From positions 33,992 through 97,991 of the IMG/VR virus record IMGVR_UViG_3300005613_000019: a stretch of 64,000 bases of DNA. One strand, given 5' to 3'. Shown here piece by piece: positions 6,273 through 64,000 of the stretch; position 1 is the first letter of the stretch; each line of letters begins with the position of its first letter. Under the pieces are notes generated by a model. It was not told the origin of the DNA, did not search any database, and saw only the letters and a program-made list of their open reading frames with translations. The DNA comes from a virus. The position numbers were made by a program, and so were the translations under genes.

Positions 6273-6704
6273 CTAATCTTTACCAAAAAGAAGTTTTTTA
6301 TTAGTCTCAAATCGTTTTACTGGAATACTAATATCTAAAATTCCATTATTAAATGAAACTTTTGAATTCTCTAAATCTAAATCCCTGTATACCTTAATCT
6401 CATGATGAAACTTACTCCTAAATTTCTCTGAAATATTTTCCCTAGAAGTATTATCAGCCATTATATGCAACTTATCGGCTTCATTCCATACTTTAATATC
6501 AGACTCATCGTACCCAGCTAAAGCAAGCTGAATACTCCAGCCCTTTAAAACATCATCATCACTATCTGGATCAATAATAGGAAACTTGTCCATAGGCGGC
6601 TTAGTTAATGTAGGCCAACTACCAAAAAAGTCGTTGAACAAACAATCAAAATCATTGAACAGGGAAGACATTCTTACGGTTGGATAAACGATTCTCGGTA
6701 ACAT
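6273..6704 (-). CDS. Hsp20/alpha-crystallin small heat shock protein
   Basis: 143 residues. After a short Phe-rich N-terminal region there is an alpha-crystallin domain (about residues 50-130): GWSIQLALAGYDESDIKV, then KLHIMADN and the closing VSFNNGILDISIPV. These match the A/GxL motif region of Hsp20. ATP-independent chaperones of this family occur in many T4-like and large phages and are thought to hold virion proteins during assembly. RBS GGAGG precedes the ATG. Confidence 0.85.
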   Translation of the reverse strand: MLPRIVYPTVRMSSLFNDFDCLFNDFFGSWPTLTKPPMDKFPIIDPDSDDDVLKGWSIQLALAGYDESDIKVWNEADKLHIMADNTSRENISEKFRSKFHHEIKVYRDLDLENSKVSFNNGILDISIPVKRFETNKKLLFGKD

Positions 6705-39162: not shown

Positions 39163-39193
39163 AAAAATTATACTATAATAAAGGAGTTATTAA

Positions 39194-40486
39194 TTGAAAA
39201 AGATAATTATAGTAGTTTTGTTAATACTAAGTTGTAATCCTCAGTCTCCAGAATCTATATACCCAGAATGGTTTGATAAAGCAATTATAGTAACTTCAGT
39301 TGATGATAACCTTAATGCTTCGGATGGTAGTAGATTTATTCAAAAATTTAAGGATCTTGGTTATATACTACATATTTATAATACTAATACTACTCTATAT
39401 GAATTTCAAAATTATTTAAAGATATCGATAGATACTTTGTATCATACAGGTCATGGTAATTATGGTGATGTAATATTGGCTGATGAGAATGCTAACAGCT
39501 ATAATTCAAGAATAAGAGTTAAAAATACTATATTTGCTACTTGTTTAACCCTTAGTGATACGTCTTGGGCATATTCTATGCAGGATGAAGCTAAAAACTT
39601 AATGGGTTATACCAAAATTAGTTGGGATTTAGTAGATGATAAAATTGTTGATGAGTATGCAAAAGCTGTTGAATACGGATATAGTCCATCTTCAGCTTGG
39701 TATATGGCTAATGCCGTATTTGAGTCAGTTAATGACCGTTGGATTGTGTATACTAGAGAGTTAGATGGTGAGATTGTTGAATATTCTGCAAGAAATGAAA
39801 ACTATGAACAATTTGTAGTTGAGAACTACTCTAAGGTCATGGATAAAGTTTATGTAAGGACTGGCCTATTAAAAAGAGGTCTTTTTACCTTTAATCTATC
39901 TTATAATCCCTTTGACCGAGTTATTAATGATGTTAACTTTAAACTTAATATTAGATTTAAAGGTCTGTCAAGTCTGAAGACGACCAATATGTCGTCTTCA
40001 GACGCTGTTAACCTAGCTAAAAAACAAATAATTAAGTCTGATTTATTAAATACTGAACTATGGAAACCTAGAGTATTTCAAATTTTAAAACGTGAAATAC
40101 AAGATGAACATCACACTGTAGTTGGCTACAGTGTGATGTTTGTTAGAATGTATTATGGACTTCCTATTAAGAGTAATGATGTTTCAGATCACATTCTTGT
40201 ATTAGTCACTGAAGAGGAATCTTATGTAGTATCATATAAATGGTCTAAATACTTAATTTTAGAGGATTATGACTCTGACAAAATATTATCCTTTGAGGAA
40301 TCTGTTAAATCCTGGTTTAAGGAATCTGAAGTACACCTGAAGGACAAAAATCTTTACATCAAAGACTATTATGTAGTATTGGGCTTAGTAGATGATTCTT
40401 TAAAACCTTCGTATGATGTTGTACTAATGGATGGTTCAAGAATAATAATAAGTGCAGTAGATGAAAGCCTTATGATAGAGGAGTAA
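39194..40486 (+). CDS. Lipoprotein with caspase-like His/Cys dyad
   Basis: 430 residues, TTG start after AAAGGAG. Signal peptide with lipobox ILSC (Cys14). Residues 30-200 look like a clan CD (caspase/gingipain-type) domain: YHTGHGNYG (His84, His87) and, after a strand, IFATCLTL (Cys117), the usual His-Gly and Ala-x-Cys spacing. Residues 200-430 are beta-rich with no match. Probably placed in the cell envelope of the infected cell. Peptidase activity is inferred from the dyad only. Confidence 0.6.
   Translation: MKKIIIVVLLILSCNPQSPESIYPEWFDKAIIVTSVDDNLNASDGSRFIQKFKDLGYILHIYNTNTTLYEFQNYLKISIDTLYHTGHGNYGDVILADENANSYNSRIRVKNTIFATCLTLSDTSWAYSMQDEAKNLMGYTKISWDLVDDKIVDEYAKAVEYGYSPSSAWYMANAVFESVNDRWIVYTRELDGEIVEYSARNENYEQFVVENYSKVMDKVYVRTGLLKRGLFTFNLSYNPFDRVINDVNFKLNIRFKGLSSLKTTNMSSSDAVNLAKKQIIKSDLLNTELWKPRVFQILKREIQDEHHTVVGYSVMFVRMYYGLPIKSNDVSDHILVLVTEEESYVVSYKWSKYLILEDYDSDKILSFEESVKSWFKESEVHLKDKNLYIKDYYVVLGLVDDSLKPSYDVVLMDGSRIIISAVDESLMIEE
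40107..40140. repeat. Hairpin, 15-bp arms, 4-nt loop, intragenic
   Basis: Perfect inverted repeat in the caspase-like lipoprotein gene; another (13 bp) at 39972-40003. Confidence 0.9.
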
Positions 40487-41286: not shown

Positions 41287-41511
41287 ATGTCTGTTATTTA
41301 TTATATACAAATTATAATATTTATAGTTTCAATTATATGTAGTACTTCTTGTTTTATTTATATGTTATTCAAACTTCCAAAGTATTTTATATTAGTTGGT
41401 TGGTTTTATATAGTTATCCTTGCTATCTTTTTAAGTTTAATGTGGCCCTTAGTGTTTTTGTATAATTTAATTACACTGTATATGGAGAAATTTTCTGGAA
41501 ATAAACCTTGA
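41287..41511 (+). CDS. Two-TM small membrane protein, holin candidate
   Basis: 74 residues with two long hydrophobic helices (about 5-30 and 33-65) and a short charged tail. It directly precedes the exported transglycosylase, an arrangement seen in lysis cassettes, but holins cannot be proven from sequence. No strong binding site. Confidence 0.5.
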   Translation: MSVIYYIQIIIFIVSIICSTSCFIYMLFKLPKYFILVGWFYIVILAIFLSLMWPLVFLYNLITLYMEKFSGNKP

Positions 41512-41594: not shown

Positions 41595-42158
41595 ATGATT
41601 TTTATTTTCTTTATTTTATTTTCTTTTTGTATGATCCAACCCCTTAATGCCTCCACCCTGGACTCAACGTCCGGGGTGGAGGCTGTTATTGTTAAATTAT
41701 TAAAATATGTGCCTAATCATAAATTAAGAAAAGATAAAAATTATTTACATGAATTTTCTAAAGCTTTAATATTTGCTGCTAATAAAGCAAACATACCTGT
41801 TGCTCTTGTAATAATGACTGCGTATAGAGAATCTACGTTTAAAACAGATATGGTTGGAAATATAGGTGAGTTGGGTATAATGCAATTACATGGGTTAGCT
41901 CAATGGAGACATTGTAAAAAAATTGAGGGACGTAAAATAAACCGAAAAGATTATAAAGATCAATTAATATGTGGCTCTCATTGGCTAAGATACTCAATTG
42001 ACTTGTGTGATGGATCATATTATCAAGGTATTTCATCATACATGACAAAAAATACATGTAAACCTAAACGAGGCTCAAAACTATCTAGGATAGTTTTGAG
42101 CCGTTTGAAACTTATGCAAAGAATTAATAATGGAACACTTAAAATAAAGGAAAAATGA
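41595..42158 (+). CDS. Exported lytic transglycosylase (SLT), possible endolysin
   Basis: 187 residues. Residues 1-19 are a signal or signal-anchor helix. The SLT/lysozyme-like core has AYRESTFKTDMVGNIGELGI (catalytic Glu79) and IMQLHG. Family members cleave the glycan strands of peptidoglycan. Export signal suggests a secreted or SAR-type endolysin. A hairpin (41649-41683) lies at the signal-peptide junction, another at 42072. Confidence 0.75.
   Translation: MIFIFFILFSFCMIQPLNASTLDSTSGVEAVIVKLLKYVPNHKLRKDKNYLHEFSKALIFAANKANIPVALVIMTAYRESTFKTDMVGNIGELGIMQLHGLAQWRHCKKIEGRKINRKDYKDQLICGSHWLRYSIDLCDGSYYQGISSYMTKNTCKPKRGSKLSRIVLSRLKLMQRINNGTLKIKEK
42072..42102. repeat. Hairpin, 14-bp arms, 3-nt loop, intragenic
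   Basis: Perfect inverted repeat near the 3' end of the transglycosylase gene. Confidence 0.9.
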
Positions 42159-42976: not shown

Positions 42977-43537
42977 ATGAAAACATCACTACACAAAAAG
43001 TTATTTGCTAAAAAATATGTTGAGTTAACTGATAAAGGTGTTAGTATTTTTTCAAAAAGTGACCATTGGACTTCTTTATGGAGATTTATTCATTGGTTTT
43101 TGAAAATTATTACTTTTAATCAAATGACTAATTTTTATACTAGCTTTACTACGACTATAGGTAAAAATATTGCTTTTCATTCAGGTTGGTCACCTATTAG
43201 TGTAGGTGCTAGAGATTATGTTATTCTTTGTCATGAAGAAAAACATGTTGAACAATATATTAAATTTGGACTTGGTAATGTTAAATTAGGTGTTGTTGTG
43301 ATGGGCTTTTTGTATTTGTTTGTGTTTATTCCCGTAGTTGGGGCTTGGTTTAGGTATTATTTTGAAAGAGAAGCTTATTTGGCAGGTATTAGAGCTTGGC
43401 AACGTTTAGGTAAAGACCCAGATATTGAACTTTATGTAGATGTGTTAACAGGCCCAAACTACGTTTGGGCCTGGCCTTTTAAAAAAAGTGTAAGGAAGTA
43501 TTTTAAAAAACATTTATATTATTATAATGAGGAGTAA
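42977..43537 (+). CDS. Membrane HExxH metalloprotease-like protein
   Basis: 186 residues. ILCHEEKHVEQ (HExxH, 86-90) is followed by a TM helix (about 103-122) and FEREAYLAG (Glu130), the likely third ligand as in gluzincin membrane peptidases. An upstream hydrophobic segment lies at 35-48. Too small for a classic M48 enzyme. Peptidase function is predicted from the motif. RBS AGAGG. Confidence 0.6.
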   Translation: MKTSLHKKLFAKKYVELTDKGVSIFSKSDHWTSLWRFIHWFLKIITFNQMTNFYTSFTTTIGKNIAFHSGWSPISVGARDYVILCHEEKHVEQYIKFGLGNVKLGVVVMGFLYLFVFIPVVGAWFRYYFEREAYLAGIRAWQRLGKDPDIELYVDVLTGPNYVWAWPFKKSVRKYFKKHLYYYNEE

Positions 43538-44439: not shown

Positions 44440-44637
44440 ATGAAGAATTTAAAAAAAGAAGTAAGGGATAAGGTTGTGGATCAGGTTTGGGTTCAGATTG
44501 GGGATCATTTTATGGATCTGGTTTGGTGGCAGGTTAAGGAGCAACTTTGGGGGCCGATTTGGGATCATGTTAGGTGGCAGGTTTTGGATTGTGTTAAGGA
44601 GCATATTTGGGATCAACTAAAGCAGGATTTAAAATGA
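44440..44637 (+). CDS. xxQV tetrapeptide-repeat protein, plus array copy 1
   Basis: 65 residues. Leader MKNLKKEVRDKVVDQV, then a 4-residue repeat with Val (or Ile/Leu) every fourth position, often preceded by Gln, and Trp frequent at the variable sites (WWQVKEQLWGPIWDHV). The 12-bp DNA period is visible. TGA overlaps the ATG of copy 2 (ATGA, 44634-44637). No known family is claimed; likely an amphipathic helix with a Val/Trp stripe. Confidence 0.65.
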   Translation: MKNLKKEVRDKVVDQVWVQIGDHFMDLVWWQVKEQLWGPIWDHVRWQVLDCVKEHIWDQLKQDLK

Positions 44638-44807
44638 AGAATTTAAAAAAAGAAATAAGGGATAAGGTTGTGGATCAGGTTTGGGTTCAGATTGGGGATC
44701 ATGTTAGGTTTCATGTTACGGATCTGGTTTGGTGGCAGGTTAAGGAGCAGGTTTGGCGTCAGGTCGGCCAAGTCCTCGGGGATCAACTAAAGGATGATTT
44801 AAAATGA
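44634..44807 (+). CDS. xxQV tetrapeptide-repeat protein, plus array copy 2
   Basis: 57 residues. Leader identical to copy 4 for 20 codons (MKNLKKEIRDKVVDQVWVQI), then shorter and diverged repeats (VRFHVTDLVWWQV). ATGA overlaps at both ends show translational coupling along the array. Confidence 0.65.
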   Translation: MKNLKKEIRDKVVDQVWVQIGDHVRFHVTDLVWWQVKEQVWRQVGQVLGDQLKDDLK

Positions 44808-44977
44808 AGAATCTAAAAAAAGAAATAAAAGATCAAGTTTGGGATAAGACTAGGGAGCAGGTTTTTGAGCAGGTTTGTTATCCGGTTAAGGAATATGTTT
44901 GGGATCAGACTTGTGGGACGGTTTGTAGGGAGGTTAGGTGGCGGGTTAGGGAGCAACTAAAGAATAATTTCAGATGA
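44804..44977 (+). CDS. xxQV tetrapeptide-repeat protein, plus array copy 3
   Basis: 57 residues, MKNLKKEIKDQVWDKTREQV followed by more degenerate repeats with Cys and Thr (EQVCYPVKEYVWDQTCGTV). Overlaps both neighbours by ATGA. The most diverged plus-strand copy. Confidence 0.65.
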   Translation: MKNLKKEIKDQVWDKTREQVFEQVCYPVKEYVWDQTCGTVCREVRWRVREQLKNNFR

Positions 44978-45162
44978 AGAATTTAAAAAAAGAAATAAGG
45001 GATAAGGTTGTGGATCAGGTTTGGGTTCAGATTGAGGATCATGTTACGGATCTGGTTAGGTGGCAGGTTAAGGAGCAACTTTGGGGGCTGATTTGGGATC
45101 ATGTTAGGTGGCAGGTTTTGTGGCATGTCTGGTTTAAACTAGAAGATCAACTAAAGGAGTGA
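44974..45162 (+). CDS. xxQV tetrapeptide-repeat protein, plus array copy 4
   Basis: 62 residues. Starts as copy 2 and continues as copy 1 (WWQVKEQLWG-type block), so it looks like a product of recombination between copies. Last of the plus array, followed by a separate RBS for the next gene. Confidence 0.65.
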   Translation: MKNLKKEIRDKVVDQVWVQIEDHVTDLVRWQVKEQLWGLIWDHVRWQVLWHVWFKLEDQLKE

Positions 45163-46479: not shown

Positions 46480-47442
46480 ATGAGACTTGAAGACATAGGA
46501 TTTTATACGCTTTCAGATGATCGTGCTATTAATGTAAGCTTAAAAACTCCTTTATCTAGGTGTGAGTTAATATTAACTGATGCTTGTAATTTTAAATGTC
46601 CTTATTGTAGGGGCTTAAGATCTGATTGTAAGGGTACTATGCCTTTTGAAAAGGCATCGAGTGTTGTTAAATATTGGACAGATGAAAATTTAATTAATAT
46701 ACGATTTTCAGGAGGTGAGCCTACCTTATATAAGCGTTTATCTGATTTAGTTAGCCAGGCTAGAGACAATGGAGTTAAGAGGATTGCTGTATCTACTAAT
46801 GGGTCTGCAAACTGGAATAAATACAGTGAATTAATTGATGCGGGTGTTAATGACTTTTCAATTTCGTTAGATGGGTGCTGTGCTTCTGTAGGTGATATAA
46901 TGGCTGGAGGTATTTCTGGAGCCTGGGATAGGGTTATTGAAAATATCATGAAAATATCTTCTAAAACATATTGTTCTGTAGGTATGGTCTTTACAGAAGA
47001 TAACATACATGATTGTTTGAATTCTGTAAAGTTTGCAGATTCTTTAGGCGTATCTGATATTAGAGTTATTCCTAGTGCTCAATATAATAAGGCTTTAAAT
47101 GCTTTAGCTGAATTAGGAAAAGATTTTTTAACGAAATATCCTATTTTGAATTATCGTATTAATAATATTAAAGAGGGTAGGCATGTTAGAGGAATTCCTA
47201 AAGGAAATAAAGATAGATGTTGGTTAGCTTTAGATGATATGGCTATCTCTGGTAACTGGAATTTTCCTTGTATTATCCATCTACGTGAAGGTGGAAATCC
47301 TGTAGGTAAAATAGGACCTAATATGAGAGAAGAAAGATTGGCTTGGTTAAAAAGTCATGAACCTTGGAAAGATCCAATTTGTAAAAATAATTGTTTAGAC
47401 GTATGTATTGATCATAATAAAACTGCGTCGTTATATAAATGA
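46480..47442 (+). CDS. Radical SAM protein with extra C-terminal Cys cluster
   Basis: 320 residues. CNFKCPYC (Cys36, 40, 43) binds the catalytic 4Fe-4S cluster; SGGEPTL (77-83) is the AdoMet amino-group motif. The C-terminal region has DRCWLALDDMAISGNW, FPC and CKNNCLDVC, like a SPASM/twitch auxiliary cluster site. Such enzymes often modify peptides. Four small repeat peptides are encoded 1.3 kb upstream on the same strand. Substrate unknown. Confidence 0.8.
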   Translation: MRLEDIGFYTLSDDRAINVSLKTPLSRCELILTDACNFKCPYCRGLRSDCKGTMPFEKASSVVKYWTDENLINIRFSGGEPTLYKRLSDLVSQARDNGVKRIAVSTNGSANWNKYSELIDAGVNDFSISLDGCCASVGDIMAGGISGAWDRVIENIMKISSKTYCSVGMVFTEDNIHDCLNSVKFADSLGVSDIRVIPSAQYNKALNALAELGKDFLTKYPILNYRINNIKEGRHVRGIPKGNKDRCWLALDDMAISGNWNFPCIIHLREGGNPVGKIGPNMREERLAWLKSHEPWKDPICKNNCLDVCIDHNKTASLYK

Positions 47443-48184: not shown

Positions 48185-48910
48185 TTATTCAGGTATCTGA
48201 CAAGTTGTTAAAACATTACTAGGCAAAGCATCTATTAAATGAGTATGCAACTCAATTGCAGGAATAAGGAGCGAGACACCCTGGTGTCTCGCTCCTATGG
48301 CCTGATTAATACCTATAACTTTACCGTTCCTATCAATCGTAGGACCTCCACTCATGCCTGGATTTAAATGGTTGTCTACTTGTATCCATTTAAATTTATT
48401 TGAAGAATTTAGTTGGTATTCTGTTGAAGATACTACACCCTCTGTTAATGAAAAGTTAAAAGGCCAAGGATGTCCTAAACTTAAAATATGTTCTCCTCGT
48501 TCTACTTTTCTATAAAATTCAAACTCAAGAAAAGGTAAAGCATGTGCCTTTATTTTTAAAATTGCAACGTCAAATTCTGGTAAAAGTACCTTTTTAACAA
48601 CCTCATAAGAACTACCGTTTTCAAACGTTACTTTAATTAACGGATCTATCAACTTTAAAGTTGAAACTATAACATGTACATTAGTTAATAAATACCCGTC
48701 AGATGTAATTACAAAACCTGTACCTATTGAGTATAGTTCTGGTGTTCCTGTAACGGACTCAAATACCTTTATTAAGCAAACGGATTGCATAGCCTTTTCA
48801 GCTACTACGGTCCATTCGGGGTTTACATTTACTTGAGGCATCGGTAAACACCCGTTTAATGAGAAAAGTAAAAAAATTGATAGGATTAAGGATGAGTTTA
48901 AATATTTCAT
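48185..48910 (-). CDS. Lipoprotein trypsin-like serine protease (DegP/HtrA type)
   Basis: 241 residues. Lipobox LNGC (Cys21). Catalytic triad: TNVHV (His79), FDVAIL (Asp114), NPGMSGGP (Ser187), the HtrA order and motifs, without a PDZ domain. Predicted to be lipid-anchored in the host envelope. Role in infection is open: superinfection exclusion, degradation of envelope proteins or virion processing are guesses. Hairpin 48267-48296 inside. Confidence 0.8.
   Translation of the reverse strand: MKYLNSSLILSIFLLFSLNGCLPMPQVNVNPEWTVVAEKAMQSVCLIKVFESVTGTPELYSIGTGFVITSDGYLLTNVHVIVSTLKLIDPLIKVTFENGSSYEVVKKVLLPEFDVAILKIKAHALPFLEFEFYRKVERGEHILSLGHPWPFNFSLTEGVVSSTEYQLNSSNKFKWIQVDNHLNPGMSGGPTIDRNGKVIGINQAIGARHQGVSLLIPAIELHTHLIDALPSNVLTTCQIPE
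48267..48296. repeat. Hairpin, 14-bp arms, 2-nt spacer, intragenic
   Basis: Perfect GC-rich inverted repeat in the lipoprotein protease gene. Confidence 0.9.
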
Positions 48911-50038: not shown

Positions 50039-50215
50039 CTATTTTAAAATATTATCTTTTAAGACTTGAAGAAGTGTAATATTCATGTGATCCCAAACTT
50101 GTATAAATACTTTATCGACAACGTAACCACATACTTTTAGTGAATATTTTGTTTTTATCGTTTCAACAATTTTATTTTTTTGGTTTAAAACTATATTCTT
50201 TTTTAAATTATTCAT
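50039..50215 (-). CDS. Diverged member of the xxQV family
   Basis: 58 residues. MNNLKKNIVLNQKNKIVETI resembles the MKNLKKE leader, and the end has FIQVWDHMNITLLQVLKDN. The repeat is otherwise worn. It is the last copy of the minus-strand group at 50-51 kb. Confidence 0.5.
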   Translation of the reverse strand: MNNLKKNIVLNQKNKIVETIKTKYSLKVCGYVVDKVFIQVWDHMNITLLQVLKDNILK

Positions 50216-50306
50216 ATGAAATTATTCTTTACTTAATCTTCTAAGTTAGACATAATCTCCCCCCAACCTGCCCCCCAACCTGCCACAAAATCTGATCCAA
50301 AACCTG

Positions 50307-50504
50307 TCACCTAACATGATCCCAAATCGGCCCCCAAAGTTGTTCCTTAACCTGCCACAAAATCTGCCACAAAATCTGATCCAAAACCTGTCCCCCAATC
50401 TGATTCCAAACCTGCCGCCTAACCTGCTCCTTAACCTGCTCCTTAACCTGATCCTTAACCTGATCCTCAATCTGATCTCTTATCTCTTCTTTTAAATTCT
50501 TCAT
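50307..50504 (-). CDS. xxQV-repeat protein, truncated by in-frame TGA
   Basis: 65 residues, MKNLKEEIRDQIEDQVKDQV..., ending where a TGA (50307-50309) replaces the TGG seen at the same place in plus copy 1 (DHVR/WQV). The repeat frame stays open beyond it for about 21 codons and then runs into a one-base frameshift before a remnant of the usual tail. Probably a decaying copy. Confidence 0.55.
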   Translation of the reverse strand: MKNLKEEIRDQIEDQVKDQVKEQVKEQVRRQVWNQIGGQVLDQILWQILWQVKEQLWGPIWDHVR

Positions 50505-50510
50505 CTGAAA

Positions 50511-50735
50511 TTATCCTTTAGTTGATTTTTTTAGATTCCCACTAACTTGCCGTAAAGCCTGATACCTAACCTGCTCCCAAACCTGCCGTAAAACCTGATA
50601 CCTAACCTGCCCCCAAACCTGCCGTAAAACCTGATACCTAACCTGCCCCCAAACCTGCCGTAAAACCTGATACCTAACCTGCCCCCAAACCTGCCGTAAA
50701 ACCTGATCTCTTATCTCTTCTTTTAAATTTTTCAT
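50511..50735 (-). CDS. xxQV-repeat protein with perfect 12-residue supra-repeats
   Basis: 74 residues. After MKNLKEEIRDQV the 12-residue block LRQVWGQVRYQV is repeated four times; the 36-bp DNA units are nearly identical, which points to recent expansion by unequal exchange. Ends SGNLKKSTKG. Confidence 0.65.
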   Translation of the reverse strand: MKNLKEEIRDQVLRQVWGQVRYQVLRQVWGQVRYQVLRQVWGQVRYQVLRQVWEQVRYQALRQVSGNLKKSTKG

Positions 50736-50801
50736 CTGAAATTATCCTTTAGTTGATTTTTTTAGATTCCCACTAACTTGCCGTAAAGCCTGATACCTAA
50801 C

Positions 50802-50966
50802 CTACTCCCAAATCTGCCGCCAAACCTGCTCCCAAACCTGCCGTAAAGCCTGATACCTAACCTGCTCCCAAACCTGCTCCCAAACCTGCCGTAAAACCTG
50901 ATACCTAACCTGCCCCCAAACCTGCCGTAAAACCTGATCTCTTATCTCTTCTTTTAAATTTTTCAT
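50802..50966 (-). CDS. xxQV-repeat protein with in-frame TAG
   Basis: 54 residues from the ATG at 50964-50966 to a TAG at 50802. The TAG stands at a Gln (CAG) position of the repeat; past it the frame continues VRYQALRQVSGNLKKSTKG to a TAA at 50742, giving exactly the same total length (225 bp) as the gene at 50511. A recent nonsense change or a suppressible stop. Confidence 0.55.
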   Translation of the reverse strand: MKNLKEEIRDQVLRQVWGQVRYQVLRQVWEQVWEQVRYQALRQVWEQVWRQIWE

Positions 50967-50967
50967 T

Positions 50968-51285
50968 TTATTTAGACTCTTTAAGAAGTCTGACCTTATT
51001 CTTAAGGTCAGACTCTCTATGATAAGCTTTTTCATAATCCATTAAATATTGATAAACTACAGGATTGTTATTTTTCATATTTTCTAAATGTCTCTCATCC
51101 CTTTTATACATTTTAGGATGACTTACATATCCGTAACTTGCCTCAGATACTGTTAATTTAAAAATTAAAAACTTTATTTTAAGATTTAATTTATAATATT
51201 CTTCTGCAATAGATACATGCTCTAAATTATTAATGTCAAATTTAACTCCGCATTTTGTAAAAATATCAGTATTTATGTTTTTCAC
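50968..51285 (-). CDS. Hypothetical helical protein
   Basis: 105 residues, helical, Lys rich (LDYEKAYHRESDLKNKVRLL). Its stop is next to the start of the xxQV gene at 50966. No family. Confidence 0.5.
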   Translation of the reverse strand: MKNINTDIFTKCGVKFDINNLEHVSIAEEYYKLNLKIKFLIFKLTVSEASYGYVSHPKMYKRDERHLENMKNNNPVVYQYLMDYEKAYHRESDLKNKVRLLKESK

Positions 51286-51287
51286 TT

Positions 51288-51494
51288 TTACTCCTCTTCA
51301 TTAATGTTCCAAGTTATAAAACCATCCTCTTCTTCTTCTTCTTCTTCTTCAAGTTCATATTTATAATTTTCAATATAAATACGAACTCTTTCTTTAATTT
51401 CTTCTTTGTCTTCAGTTTCTTCATGTATAAAAGGATATTGAAAAAGACCTTCCTCTCCTTCAATTTCGTCAAATAAATTAAATATCTTTACCAT
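51288..51494 (-). CDS. Acidic small protein with Glu run
   Basis: 68 residues with an eight-Glu tract encoded by a GAA/GAG triplet repeat (about 51333-51353), prone to length change. ATG after AAGGAGGAATCAGC. Function unknown; DNA mimicry is conceivable. Confidence 0.5.
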   Translation of the reverse strand: MVKIFNLFDEIEGEEGLFQYPFIHEETEDKEEIKERVRIYIENYKYELEEEEEEEEDGFITWNINEEE

Positions 51495-51512
51495 GCTGAT
51501 TCCTCCTTAATA

Positions 51513-51902
51513 TTAAATGTATATTCCTACCGTTTTAGCTAAATAATAAATTTGTAAATGATTTATGTTAATTACTAGATATAAAAAGTTAAGTAAAAAT
51601 ATAAAAATATTAAGACGTTTTTTAATTTTATAATTACTCTTTGAATAACTATCATATAAAATAATAGTGAAACCTATAAGTATACTTATCTTAGTAATTA
51701 TAAAAAGATTTGGGTCTAGTTTCAGAAGGTAATCCATTAAGGGATTACCTTCTGAAACTACATAATACCCAGTATCTAATTTTAAAATAATGTTTGATAA
51801 AACTGTAAAATAATAGGTAAATCCAGTGTCGATTAAATTTAAAATATTTAAAACTACTAACTGAATACTTAAACACTTTTTAGTATAAAATTTATTTAGC
51901 AC
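51513..51902 (-). CDS. DUF5658-like membrane protein
   Basis: 129 residues with about four TM helices. ILNLIDTGFTYYF and GNPLMDYLL followed by ITKISILIG match the DxxxT, NPxM and K motifs of the DUF5658 family. Function unknown. It holds the longest perfect stem in the window, 19 bp (51717-51760). Confidence 0.6.
   Translation of the reverse strand: MLNKFYTKKCLSIQLVVLNILNLIDTGFTYYFTVLSNIILKLDTGYYVVSEGNPLMDYLLKLDPNLFIITKISILIGFTIILYDSYSKSNYKIKKRLNIFIFLLNFLYLVININHLQIYYLAKTVGIYI
51717..51760. repeat. Hairpin, 19-bp arms, 6-nt loop, intragenic
   Basis: Longest perfect stem seen, inside the DUF5658-like gene. Confidence 0.9.
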
Positions 51903-51960
51903 CTATAAATCCTCCTTTAACTTTTATATTACATAAATCTGTTGGATATGTCAATAAAAA

Positions 51961-52503
51961 TTAAAAAGGCTTTTTAAAAGATTTGTAATGAATAGCTCCA
52001 CCACATGTTATACAACTATGTATCGAAGCTTCACACGCTAATTGTACAGATGTTTTAGCGTCTAAACCTAAAGACTTACAGGTGTATAAAGCTCCCATTG
52101 CAACCTCCTCACCTGTCCCTGAAGCATAAAACCCAGTCTCTATTGTATGAATCTGAAAATCATCCTCTATGGTAAAAATACCGTGTGGAGAAACTATTAT
52201 AATAGAAATGTTTGGATAATTATCTTCATTTCGGGGGTTAACCAAAAATTCGTAGGATCTTACTATATTAATTAATTCATCTCTAAATTTACGTAAGTCA
52301 TTTAAATCTCTGATTTCGTTAGGAAAACATTCATATTCTTCTAATACGTCACCTACCCTGTAAGAACCGGCATTGCTTAATGTGTAATTTTTTTTAGAAA
52401 TTAACTTAGATCCAAATTCAATTTTTAAGTTGTCGTAAGATCCTAAACTATCCGTTGCAATGCATACTTGATTTGTATCTTCTGATGCTGCTATTATTGT
52501 CAT
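51961..52503 (-). CDS. Proteasome/HslV-like Ntn hydrolase
   Basis: 180 residues. Begins MTIIAASED with a Thr at position 2 as the expected N-terminal nucleophile; ATDSLGSYD, SNAGSYRVGD and YASGTGEEVAMGALY follow the proteasome beta/HslV pattern. Such single-subunit peptidases occur in some large phages. Whether it pairs with a host unfoldase is unknown. Confidence 0.7.
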   Translation of the reverse strand: MTIIAASEDTNQVCIATDSLGSYDNLKIEFGSKLISKKNYTLSNAGSYRVGDVLEEYECFPNEIRDLNDLRKFRDELINIVRSYEFLVNPRNEDNYPNISIIIVSPHGIFTIEDDFQIHTIETGFYASGTGEEVAMGALYTCKSLGLDAKTSVQLACEASIHSCITCGGAIHYKSFKKPF

Positions 52504-52672
52504 CTATAACCTCCTAGTTATATAAACTTTATAAATATGATGTTTAACTAATACTTTTGTTAATTTAAAATTTAAACCTTAAAATCTGAATAATAGAAGC
52601 CTTTACCTTGATGTTTAGTAATATAAACAGAGTAAAGTTATAGACTTCGTCTGCAAATTTGTTATGCTTATC

Positions 52673-52708
52673 GAAATATACCTCCAGCTTAAGCTGGAGG
52701 TATATTTC
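52673..52708. repeat. 36-bp perfect palindrome
   Basis: Perfect inverted repeat without spacer, intergenic, 15 bases past the stop of the xxQV gene at 52723. In RNA it would form a stable hairpin and may end transcription. Confidence 0.9.
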
Positions 52709-52722
52709 TTATTTTAAATTCT

Positions 52723-52908
52723 TTATTTGAAATTATCCTTTAATTTATTTATAATAAGCCATCTAGCCTGACTCCAAACTTGCCATTTAACCTGACCCCA
52801 AACCTGATCCCAAATATTATCTCTGATATTTCTTTTAACCTGCCACCAAATTATCTCTTCAACCTGCTCTAAAATGTAATCTCTTATTTCATATTTTAAA
52901 TTCTTCAT
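52723..52908 (-). CDS. xxQV-family protein
   Basis: 61 residues, MKNLKYEIRDYILEQVEEII then WWQVKRNIRDNIWDQVWGQV. Start overlaps the stop of the serine protease gene (52905-52908, ATGA). A somewhat diverged copy. Confidence 0.6.
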   Translation of the reverse strand: MKNLKYEIRDYILEQVEEIIWWQVKRNIRDNIWDQVWGQVKWQVWSQARWLIINKLKDNFK

Positions 52909-53480
52909 TCTAAAACAATCCTTTTAATTACTTTAAAACTTATATGCCTGGACCCTGAAAGGCTGTGTATACCTACTACACAACTTCTAGATCCTTCGTT
53001 TTTAAAAATAGGAACACCTGAATATCCAGGCATTGTCCTAATGCTGGATATTATAAAATCCCCCCTTATGTTATTTATCTTACCTAACTTTTTATAATAT
53101 TTTCCATTCTTGTAAAGTATTAAATATACTGAATCACCATAATTGACGGTATTACATAATTTTAACGGCTTATTGAATTCATTAACCCTTAATATTACTA
53201 AGTCTTTATCGTAAGATGTCTTTTCAATATTAACTACAGTAATAATATTACCCCTACTTATTATTACTATAGGTTTACCCTTGTCCCTGTTCTTAATTAT
53301 ATGATAAGAAGTTAATATTAAATCCTTATCTATATAAAAACCCTCACCTTTGAAAGACCCTCCACCTTCCCTGGAAACAATTACCTCAACTATAGAATAA
53401 CCATCGTAACTATATACACTATTAGAAATTATTAAACATATAGTAAAAATTAAAACTCTTGAATACACCTTAATACTCAT
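52905..53480 (-). CDS. Exported trypsin-like serine protease
   Basis: 191 residues. Signal peptide (1-24). Triad LTSYHII (His60), DKDLVIL (Asp93) and MPGYSGVPIF (Ser154). Compact, no PDZ. Not closely similar to the lipoprotein protease at 48185. Its ATG overlaps the upstream stop as TAATG. Probably acts outside the cytoplasm. Confidence 0.7.
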   Translation of the reverse strand: MSIKVYSRVLIFTICLIISNSVYSYDGYSIVEVIVSREGGGSFKGEGFYIDKDLILTSYHIIKNRDKGKPIVIISRGNIITVVNIEKTSYDKDLVILRVNEFNKPLKLCNTVNYGDSVYLILYKNGKYYKKLGKINNIRGDFIISSIRTMPGYSGVPIFKNEGSRSCVVGIHSLSGSRHISFKVIKRIVLE

Positions 53481-53659
53481 TACTTCTTATGAATTATATA
53501 ATATTCATTATCTTTTATTAAACCGTTTCTAATTAAATAAGCATCAATGTCAAGCTCCGTCTTGACATTGATGCTTCCTCTCCTTAAAACTAAACGCTTT
53601 ATAAAGCGTTTAGTTTTATTTTTATAAATATCTACTAAAAATAAAATATCAGAAGACAT
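53480..53659 (-). CDS. Small protein carrying two large palindromes
   Basis: 59 residues (MSSDILFLVDIYKNKTKRFI...). TAATG overlap with the protease gene and a GAGGAG site support it. Two hairpins fill over a third of it: 53539-53576 (16-bp arms) and 53585-53618 (34-bp perfect palindrome). Confidence 0.6.
   Translation of the reverse strand: MSSDILFLVDIYKNKTKRFIKRLVLRRGSINVKTELDIDAYLIRNGLIKDNEYYIIHKK
53539..53618. repeat. Two long palindromes in one 59-codon gene
   Basis: 53539-53576 (16-bp arms, 6-nt loop) and 53585-53618 (17-bp arms, no spacer), both perfect. Confidence 0.9.
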
Positions 53660-53712
53660 AATATTTCTCCTCTAAAACTTGATTCCTTATTTCTTTTTTT
53701 TAAATTCTTCAT
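53660..53712 (-). pseudogene. Vestigial xxQV-family leader
   Basis: ATG at 53710-53712 overlaps the upstream copy (ATGA). The leader MKNLKK is followed by a one-base insertion in an A run; restoring it would give the EIRNQVLEE-type leader, which then stops in the next gene's RBS. A truncated copy whose end now serves as the 5' region of the gene at 53659. Confidence 0.5.
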
Positions 53713-53930
53713 CTGAAATTATTATTTATTTGATCCTCTAATTTAGACCAAACCTGCCACCAAACCTGCCACTCAACCTGCCAAAAAACATGATCCTTAA
53801 CCTGCCACCAAACCTGCCACTCAACCTGCCAAAAAACATGATCCTTAACCTGACACAAAACCTGCCACCAAACCTCTCCCTTAACCTGATCCCTAACTTG
53901 ATCCCTTATCTCTTCTTTTAAATTCTTCAT
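53709..53930 (-). CDS. xxQV-repeat protein
   Basis: 73 residues. MKNLKEEIRDQVRDQVKGEV, then two copies of a WWQVKDHVFWQVEWQV block (60-bp DNA repeat), then SKLEDQINNNFR. ATGA overlap with the upstream copy. Confidence 0.65.
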   Translation of the reverse strand: MKNLKEEIRDQVRDQVKGEVWWQVLCQVKDHVFWQVEWQVWWQVKDHVFWQVEWQVWWQVWSKLEDQINNNFR

Positions 53931-54124
53931 CTGAAATTATTATTTATTTGATCTTCTAAGTTAGACATAATCTCCCCCCTAACTTGCCAAAAAACCTGCC
54001 ACAAAACCTCCCCCCTAACTTGCTCCAAAACCTGATCCCTAACCTGCTTCAAAACCTGATCCCAAAGCTGATCCCTAACCTGATCCCTAACTTGATCCCT
54101 TATCTCTTCTTTTAAATTCTTCAT
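53927..54124 (-). CDS. xxQV-repeat protein
   Basis: 65 residues, MKNLKEEIRDQVRDQVRDQL... ending MSNLEDQINNNFR, the same tail as the next gene. Start overlaps the readthrough stop of the upstream copy as ATGA. Confidence 0.65.
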   Translation of the reverse strand: MKNLKEEIRDQVRDQVRDQLWDQVLKQVRDQVLEQVRGEVLWQVFWQVRGEIMSNLEDQINNNFR

Positions 54125-54183
54125 CCTAAATTATCCTTTATTTGATCCTTTAATTTAGATCTAACCTCCGGATTGACCTGCCT

Positions 54184-54414
54184 CTAAACCTGCCACCCAA
54201 CCTGCTCCTTAATATTATCCCAAACCTTCCACCCTACCTTCCACCAAGTCTGCCCCCAAACCTGCCTCTTAACCTGCCACCCAACCTTCTCCTCAACATG
54301 ATCCTCAACCTGCTCTTCAATATTATCCCAAACCTGCCACCCAACCTTCTCCCTAACATGCTTCCAAACCTGCCACCTAACTTGATCCCTTATCTCTTCT
54401 TTTAAATTCTTCAT
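54184..54414 (-). CDS. xxQV-repeat protein with in-frame TAG
   Basis: 76 residues to a TAG at 54184. Beyond it the frame stays open (RQVNPEVRSKLKDQIKDN) to a TGA at 54121 that forms the usual ATGA overlap with the next gene, so the full gene was 54121-54414. First gene after the promoter at 54519-54547. Confidence 0.6.
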   Translation of the reverse strand: MKNLKEEIRDQVRWQVWKHVREKVGWQVWDNIEEQVEDHVEEKVGWQVKRQVWGQTWWKVGWKVWDNIKEQVGWQV

Positions 54415-63729: not shown

Positions 63730-64000
63730 TTAAGAATTCTTAATTTTGTTTTCTAGATATTTGACGATCTTAAAATAACCATTTTCAGAAGCCCCTCTAA
63801 GAGCATTCTCATTATCAGGGTTAGCACCTTTTTCAACCAGGTATTTGACGATCTCAAAATGACCGTAGTTAGAAGCCCCTCTAAGAGCATCCTCATTATC
63901 AGCATGAACGTCTGCTCCCTTTTGGAGCAATAACCTAACAACCTCTAAATGACCATTTGAAGAAGCCCCTCTAAAAGCATGGCCATTATAAGCATGGGGT
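63730..64000 (-). CDS. Ankyrin-repeat protein, N-terminus outside the window
   Basis: 89 visible residues with two and a half ankyrin repeats (ALRGASNYGHFEIVKYLVEK; ALRGASENGYFKIVKYLENK). DNA of the repeats is nearly identical, so recently amplified. The frame continues past 64000. Ankyrin proteins bind other proteins; the target is unknown. Confidence 0.75.
   Translation of the reverse strand, partial: PHAYNGHAFRGASSNGHLEVVRLLLQKGADVHADNEDALRGASNYGHFEIVKYLVEKGANPDNENALRGASENGYFKIVKYLENKIKNS

Follow-up and report, generated by a model that had tools for sequence, protein, structure and literature searches.

The window, i.e., the whole stretch of viral DNA analysed here, is 64,000 nucleotides long and corresponds to positions 33992-97991 of a 97,991-base record of IMG/VR. 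The record, from a large uncultured bacterial virus, contains a phage terminase large subunit; among annotated sequences, it is closest, at 34% identity, to that of 'Virus Rctr197k', which came from an anaerobic enrichment. The gene under study (Table 1) follows a ribosome-binding site at a spacing of 7 nt from its TTG start, and an adenine methylase gene begins 2 nt past its stop. The first 14 residues of the product, MKKIIIVVLLILSC, fit a PROSITE-style lipobox pattern at Cys14, as had been claimed in the preliminary description of this DNA. A lipobox scan of all ORFs in the 98-kb record returned only two plausible lipoproteins, this one and the product of 48185-48910. These sequence features support the prediction that the gene encodes a bacterial-type lipoprotein.

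Table 1. Features of the predicted caspase-like lipoprotein gene and of other genes considered with it (window coordinates, except for the last row, which is numbered on locus L003)
Feature	Coordinates	Strand	Details
Ribosome-binding site	39180..39186	+	AAAGGAG; read in sequence
Caspase-like lipoprotein gene	39194..40486	+	430 aa; TTG start, TAA stop
Signal peptide and lipobox, residues 1-14	39194..39235	+	Pattern match; predicted lipidated Cys14, then Asn15
Caspase/haemoglobinase-type domain, residues 22-191	39257..39766	+	Clan CD structural alignment of model residues 7-176
His84 codon	39443..39445	+	Invariant across family
His87 codon	39452..39454	+	Predicted catalytic His after strand 3; invariant Gly88 next
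Cys117 codon	39542..39544	+	Predicted nucleophile after strand 4; invariant
C-terminal module, residues 255-430	39956..40483	+	Two alpha-beta-beta-(beta) units; weakly PepSY-like
Two-TM 74-aa protein	41287-41511	+	Downstream of lipoprotein gene
Exported SLT transglycosylase	41595-42158	+	Pfam E 2.6e-6
Second phage lipoprotein, trypsin-like (Deg-type) peptidase	48185..48910	-	Pfam Trypsin_2 E 3.9e-26; lipobox SLNGC
Secreted trypsin-like peptidase, signal peptide	52905..53480	-	Pfam Trypsin_2 E 4.6e-10
Possible spanin/holin set	L003:12487-13593	-	Rz-like spanin profile E 0.0028 among coiled-coil matches; multi-TM neighbour

Apart from the lipobox Cys14, the phage protein has a single cysteine, Cys117, which lies in the motif IFATCLTL; an upstream motif, YHTGHG, provides His84 and His87. 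When the protein was shuffled 200,000 times, the arrangement of a hydrophobic residue and xTGHG followed by a hydrophobic residue, x and Cys arose twice, and the stricter HxGHG...C pattern did not arise in any of the 200,000 rounds.

On its own, the protein resembles very little in the databases. Pfam, NCBIfam and PHROGs gave no match beyond noise, and a sequence search of the PDB gave none; the weak matches to the Ibs toxin and to phrog_25620 were dismissed as chance, and so was phrog_16511, which covers only the signal peptide. With tblastn, the protein remained unmatched in 50,697 phage and 72,556 plasmid records, while single-protein searches of IMG/VR and of genome contigs yielded nothing usable. 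The clan CD families covered by Pfam (such as C14, C25, C11 and C13) did not match it even at an E-value of 10.

Relatives were instead recovered through the motif. The genomes of bacteria and archaea, 84,980 in all, were searched with a single degenerate DNA pattern that encodes YHTGHGN, and the matches were decoded frame by frame. Most of these were sulfatase-like (GKIYHTGHGN) or out-of-frame chance occurrences, without the downstream Cys motif; two matches to the pattern in IMG/VR (L011, L012) were also due to chance. Six ORFs at five loci were, on the other hand, found to resemble the phage protein well beyond the motif. One (L024) belongs to a Desulfobacteraceae bacterium, two are tandem copies at another Desulfobacteraceae locus (L105), one is from Labilibaculum filiforme of the Bacteroidota (L030), and two (L035, L081) are from a single groundwater MAG classed as Myxococcota. 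Genome searches around these loci added five further relatives, all from one small Myxococcota order. There are thus 11 full-length-type bacterial relatives, with 27-31% identity, and none of the 11 matches the clan CD families of Pfam named above. Together with the phage protein they make 12 sequences that align over the whole 400 residues, one of them ending at residue 293.

As a control for circularity, profiles were made from the bacterial sequences only, and the recruiting motif was left out of the part profiles. The full bacterial profile found the phage ORF over its full length with an E-value of 1.1e-83. The part profiles also recognised it, namely the one covering the region before the His motif (E 2.1e-11), the one after the Cys motif (E 9.7e-25) and that of the C-terminal module (E 5e-22), while the runner-up phage ORF had an E-value above 0.1 with every one of them. 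By sequence, then, the phage protein is a member of a rare and undescribed family of predicted secreted bacterial proteins.

In the alignment of the 12 sequences, His84, Thr85, His87, Gly88 and Ala115-Thr116-Cys117 are invariant, along with many Trp, Tyr and Asp positions. Gly88, which adjoins the predicted catalytic His as a glycine does in clan CD, is kept in 12 of 12. As His84, His87, Gly88 and Cys117 are unchanged in eleven bacterial relatives, the motif has been kept by selection and not by chance. Three Myxococcota members (L136, L137 and L138) carry YHTSHGN in place of YHTGHGN, with Ser replacing the Gly before the catalytic His; the His, the following Gly and the Cys are retained.

In the Desulfobacteraceae protein L024, there are two PPC ('pre-peptidase C-terminal') domains, a type commonly seen in peptidases that are secreted. 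The Myxococcota relatives (L035, L081 and L135-L139) have N-terminal lipoprotein signals, acidic Asp/Ala-rich linkers and, ahead of the protease domain, tandem cysteine-rich repeats of the form CxGxC...CTCxxxDPCGWxxxGxCD.

An AlphaFold2 model of the phage protein was made with the guidance of seven of the family sequences, those of the loci from the genome searches being left out. Its confidence is moderate (mean pLDDT 58.7, pTM 0.51), and two loops beside the predicted active site, at model residues 73-91 and 104-117, fall below 50. A single-sequence model of the mature protein, with a pLDDT of 32, was discarded. The secondary structure of the guided model reads beta-alpha-beta-alpha-beta(HG)-beta(C)-alpha-beta-alpha. 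First come strand 15-20 with helix 27-39, next strand 43-48 with helix 53-60, and then the strands 66-71 and 96-101; helix 108-112, strand 120-123 and helices 130-145 and 150-158 follow. Strand 66-71 is followed by model His72, which is precursor His87, and strand 96-101 by model Cys102, which is precursor Cys117. In clan CD, strands 3 and 4 each have one residue of the dyad at their C-terminal end, and a glycine adjoins the His (PMC4357240).

When model residues 3-182 were compared with the PDB, all 50 of the 50 best entries listed were clan CD peptidases or their CHAT relatives, with Z values of 9.8-12.0 and with model residues 7-176 aligned; models without a clear match typically reach a best Z of 7-8. 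The best fold match was a SAVED-CHAT protein (8tl0; Z 12.0, 3.3 A over 159 residues), and the entries also included RgpB (4ief, Z 11.8), MALT1 (4i1r, Z 10.9), caspase-7 (4hq0, Z 10.7) and separase (5fby, Z 10.2). Foldseek against the PDB likewise placed SAVED-CHAT first (E 3.4e-4, probability 1.00). The nearest viral predicted structure was A0A8S5MXG5, an uncharacterized protein of Myoviridae sp. ctWaE18 (Foldseek E 1.6e-4, probability 1.00), with which the likeness is structural only, at 14% identity.

These comparisons bear directly on the preliminary description, which had read YHTGHG and IFATCLTL as a His87/Cys117 dyad in clan CD order and had proposed a structure prediction and a search against clan CD folds. 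Both residues lie where it had placed them and are invariant in the 11 relatives, and the model puts them after strands 3 and 4. The caspase alpha/beta core is present in the model, and as the 50 best PDB entries are all clan CD or CHAT relatives, the fold test is passed. The targets that it had suggested (host surface proteins, competing phages or host defence sensors) are speculative. Its more specific wording, a caspase/gingipain-type enzyme, holds for the modelled fold and does not extend to the known sequence families C14 and C25, to which there is no Pfam match. The model thus supports placing the phage protein with the clan CD peptidases by fold, as an unnamed family. With gingipain RgpB (C25), the caspases and MALT1 (C14) and separase (C50), it shares the predicted alpha/beta core, in which His-Gly comes at the end of strand 3 and Cys at the end of strand 4. 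It differs from them in sequence (8-16% identity in the structural alignments) and in its architecture of lipobox, protease and PepSY-like module. SAVED-CHAT is a cytoplasmic, ligand-activated anti-phage effector; the phage protein, in contrast, carries a signal for export and lacks a SAVED domain.

The closest named family is DUF6345 (PF19872). It was met by one relative below threshold (E 0.084, 12.8 bits against a cut-off of 26.9), while the phage record gave no match even at an E-value of 10. Ten DUF6345 proteins of about 180-360 aa were collected for comparison, and their invariant residues include a His-Gly and one Cys. Profile-profile comparison by hhalign gave a probability of 94.5% and an E-value of 7.4e-8 over 130 columns; the His-Gly and Cys that are invariant in DUF6345 fall on His87-Gly88 and Cys117 of the phage protein. 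The DUF6345 proteins collected are, however, not long enough to include the C-terminal module of the phage family. The profiles show a remote kinship between the two families, while the Pfam cut-off leaves the phage family outside DUF6345. DUF6345 itself, annotated as of unknown function, is likely to be a caspase-like family, with HG and C in clan CD order. No solved structure or tested function was found for members of either family.

The C-terminal module (residues 255-430) forms two alpha-beta units in the model and is conserved in all full-length relatives. Two relatives matched PepSY (PF03413) below threshold (E 0.04 and 0.12), and the phage protein gave no match above the Pfam gathering score. 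With hhalign, the module was compared with a PepSY ORF that lies some 1 kb downstream of the G1645 relative (probability 29%, E 6e-4). A weak likeness of the module to PepSY is thus suggested. As PepSY domains are found in peptidase propeptides (Pfam description of PF03413), a self-inhibiting or chaperone role is plausible. If truly PepSY-like, the module could be a built-in inhibitor or folding aid, which would be removed or displaced for activation.

Taken together, the product of the gene is probably a lipoprotein that is exported and is active as a cysteine peptidase, with a His-Cys dyad and a fold of the caspase/haemoglobinase (clan CD) type. Signal peptidase II would cleave before Cys14, and the lipidated protein would then sit on a membrane of the host envelope, facing the periplasm or the outside. 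There, Cys117, activated by His87, would cut envelope proteins. The phage encodes two other predicted exported peptidases, both trypsin-like (Table 1); in the lipoprotein of 48185-48910, the motifs NVHV, DVAIL and GMSGGP of the H/D/S triad can be read. With two more exported peptidases having complete Ser-His-Asp motifs, a proteolytic assault on the envelope would be a consistent theme. The most likely use of the enzyme, although a speculative one with the balance somewhat against it, would be to remodel, beside these two, the host envelope proteome during infection. A receptor might be clipped to block superinfection, for example, or an envelope stress or defence protein inactivated. The complete picture, in which a membrane-anchored caspase-fold protease is restrained by a PepSY-like inhibitor and deployed with the two trypsin-like peptidases against host envelope proteins, is tentative.

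The gene may also be cargo (a moron) of bacterial origin, either of use to the host or picked up in passing, and without a role in the phage cycle. All the relatives found are bacterial, and they are rare and scattered: in the broad genome samples they occurred in 1/395, 1/395, 2/377, 1/242 and 1/247, and in four of the five samples the sole carrier was the genome used as the centre. In the one Myxococcota order, a relative was present in 4/5 genomes. No other virus was found with a copy, neither by alignment-guided scans of IMG/VR nor, with a bacterial relative as query, among the phages and plasmids of INPHARED and PLSDB; the eight records with related terminases also had none, most of these being short fragments. 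The phage protein, however, sits on a very long branch, of 3.88 changes per site, so that the gene was either acquired long ago or is evolving rapidly. Since the frame and every invariant residue are nevertheless intact on this branch, long-term selection is indicated and not a recent pick-up, and we regard a mere cargo gene as unlikely.

Another reading accepts the clan CD-type fold and denies the activity; the protein would be a pseudoenzyme or binding lipoprotein that blocks a receptor as T5 Llp does. T5 Llp and T1 Cor, which are phage lipoproteins of known function, do act in this way, excluding superinfection by binding TonB-dependent receptors, FhuA in the case of the small Llp (PMC9586334). 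Like them, the protein studied here is phage-encoded and, if lipidated as predicted, set on the host envelope. Llp, however, binds and is small, while this is a predicted protease of 430 aa. Also, the His-Gly/Cys dyad is invariant in 12 sequences at ~30% identity, as catalysis would predict, and Cys117 is the sole cysteine of the phage protein outside the lipobox. Loss of catalysis is, therefore, given a small probability.

Slightly less probable still is that the protein is an enzyme of a lysis module, attacking the outer envelope or the S-layer late in infection. The genes of a two-TM protein and of an exported SLT transglycosylase do lie 0.8-1.1 kb downstream on the same strand, but the DNA adenine methylase gene separates those of the lipoprotein and the transglycosylase, and a locus close to the window on its upstream side (last row of Table 1) looks more holin- or spanin-like. 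Finally, that the motif is fortuitous in a protein unrelated to clan CD might be argued from the uninformative single-sequence model and from the lack of a matching database family, but it is effectively ruled out by the full-length match of the bacterial-only profiles and by the fold comparison.

An active envelope protease is thus the reading that we prefer. The clan CD proteases known from bacteria are mainly exoproteases and effectors of cell death in anti-phage defence. An exported, apparently lipid-anchored member in a phage would turn the fold toward the host envelope; a partial literature search found no publication that describes a phage lipoprotein with such a fold. If receptors or defence proteins are indeed cut, this would contrast with the known lipoprotein exclusion factors, which block by binding, and receptor cutting would be, at a guess, another route to exclusion of the Llp/Cor type. 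The analysis also points to a family of secreted caspase-like proteins, small and without a name, which the protein family libraries used do not recognise. DUF6345, it suggests, likewise consists of caspase-like peptidases.

Some further genes of the window may be mentioned. A proteasome-like Ntn-hydrolase, and thus a further protease, is encoded at 51961-52503 (-); it has a weak PDB match to BPH, a proteasome homologue of beta-proteobacteria (E 0.0019), and 25% identity to 'proteasome subunit' genes of Vibrio phages. The membrane protein of 42977-43537 (+) has an HEEKH motif and may be a metallopeptidase, with no family match. About ten small ORFs of 57-77 aa start with MKNLK(K/E)EIRDQV and contain heptad-like repeats (WDQVRDQVWWQV...); they form two clusters on opposite strands, at 44440-45162 (+) and 50039-54414 (-), and one of them has a sub-threshold match to Pfam YTV. 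A radical SAM protein (46480-47442, +) matches phage radical SAM and QueE-like families and is possibly involved in base modification, and an ankyrin-repeat protein is found at 63730-63930 (-; Pfam Ank_2 E 2.4e-9). An Hsp20/alpha-crystallin chaperone (6273-6704, -) lies inside the phage structural gene region.
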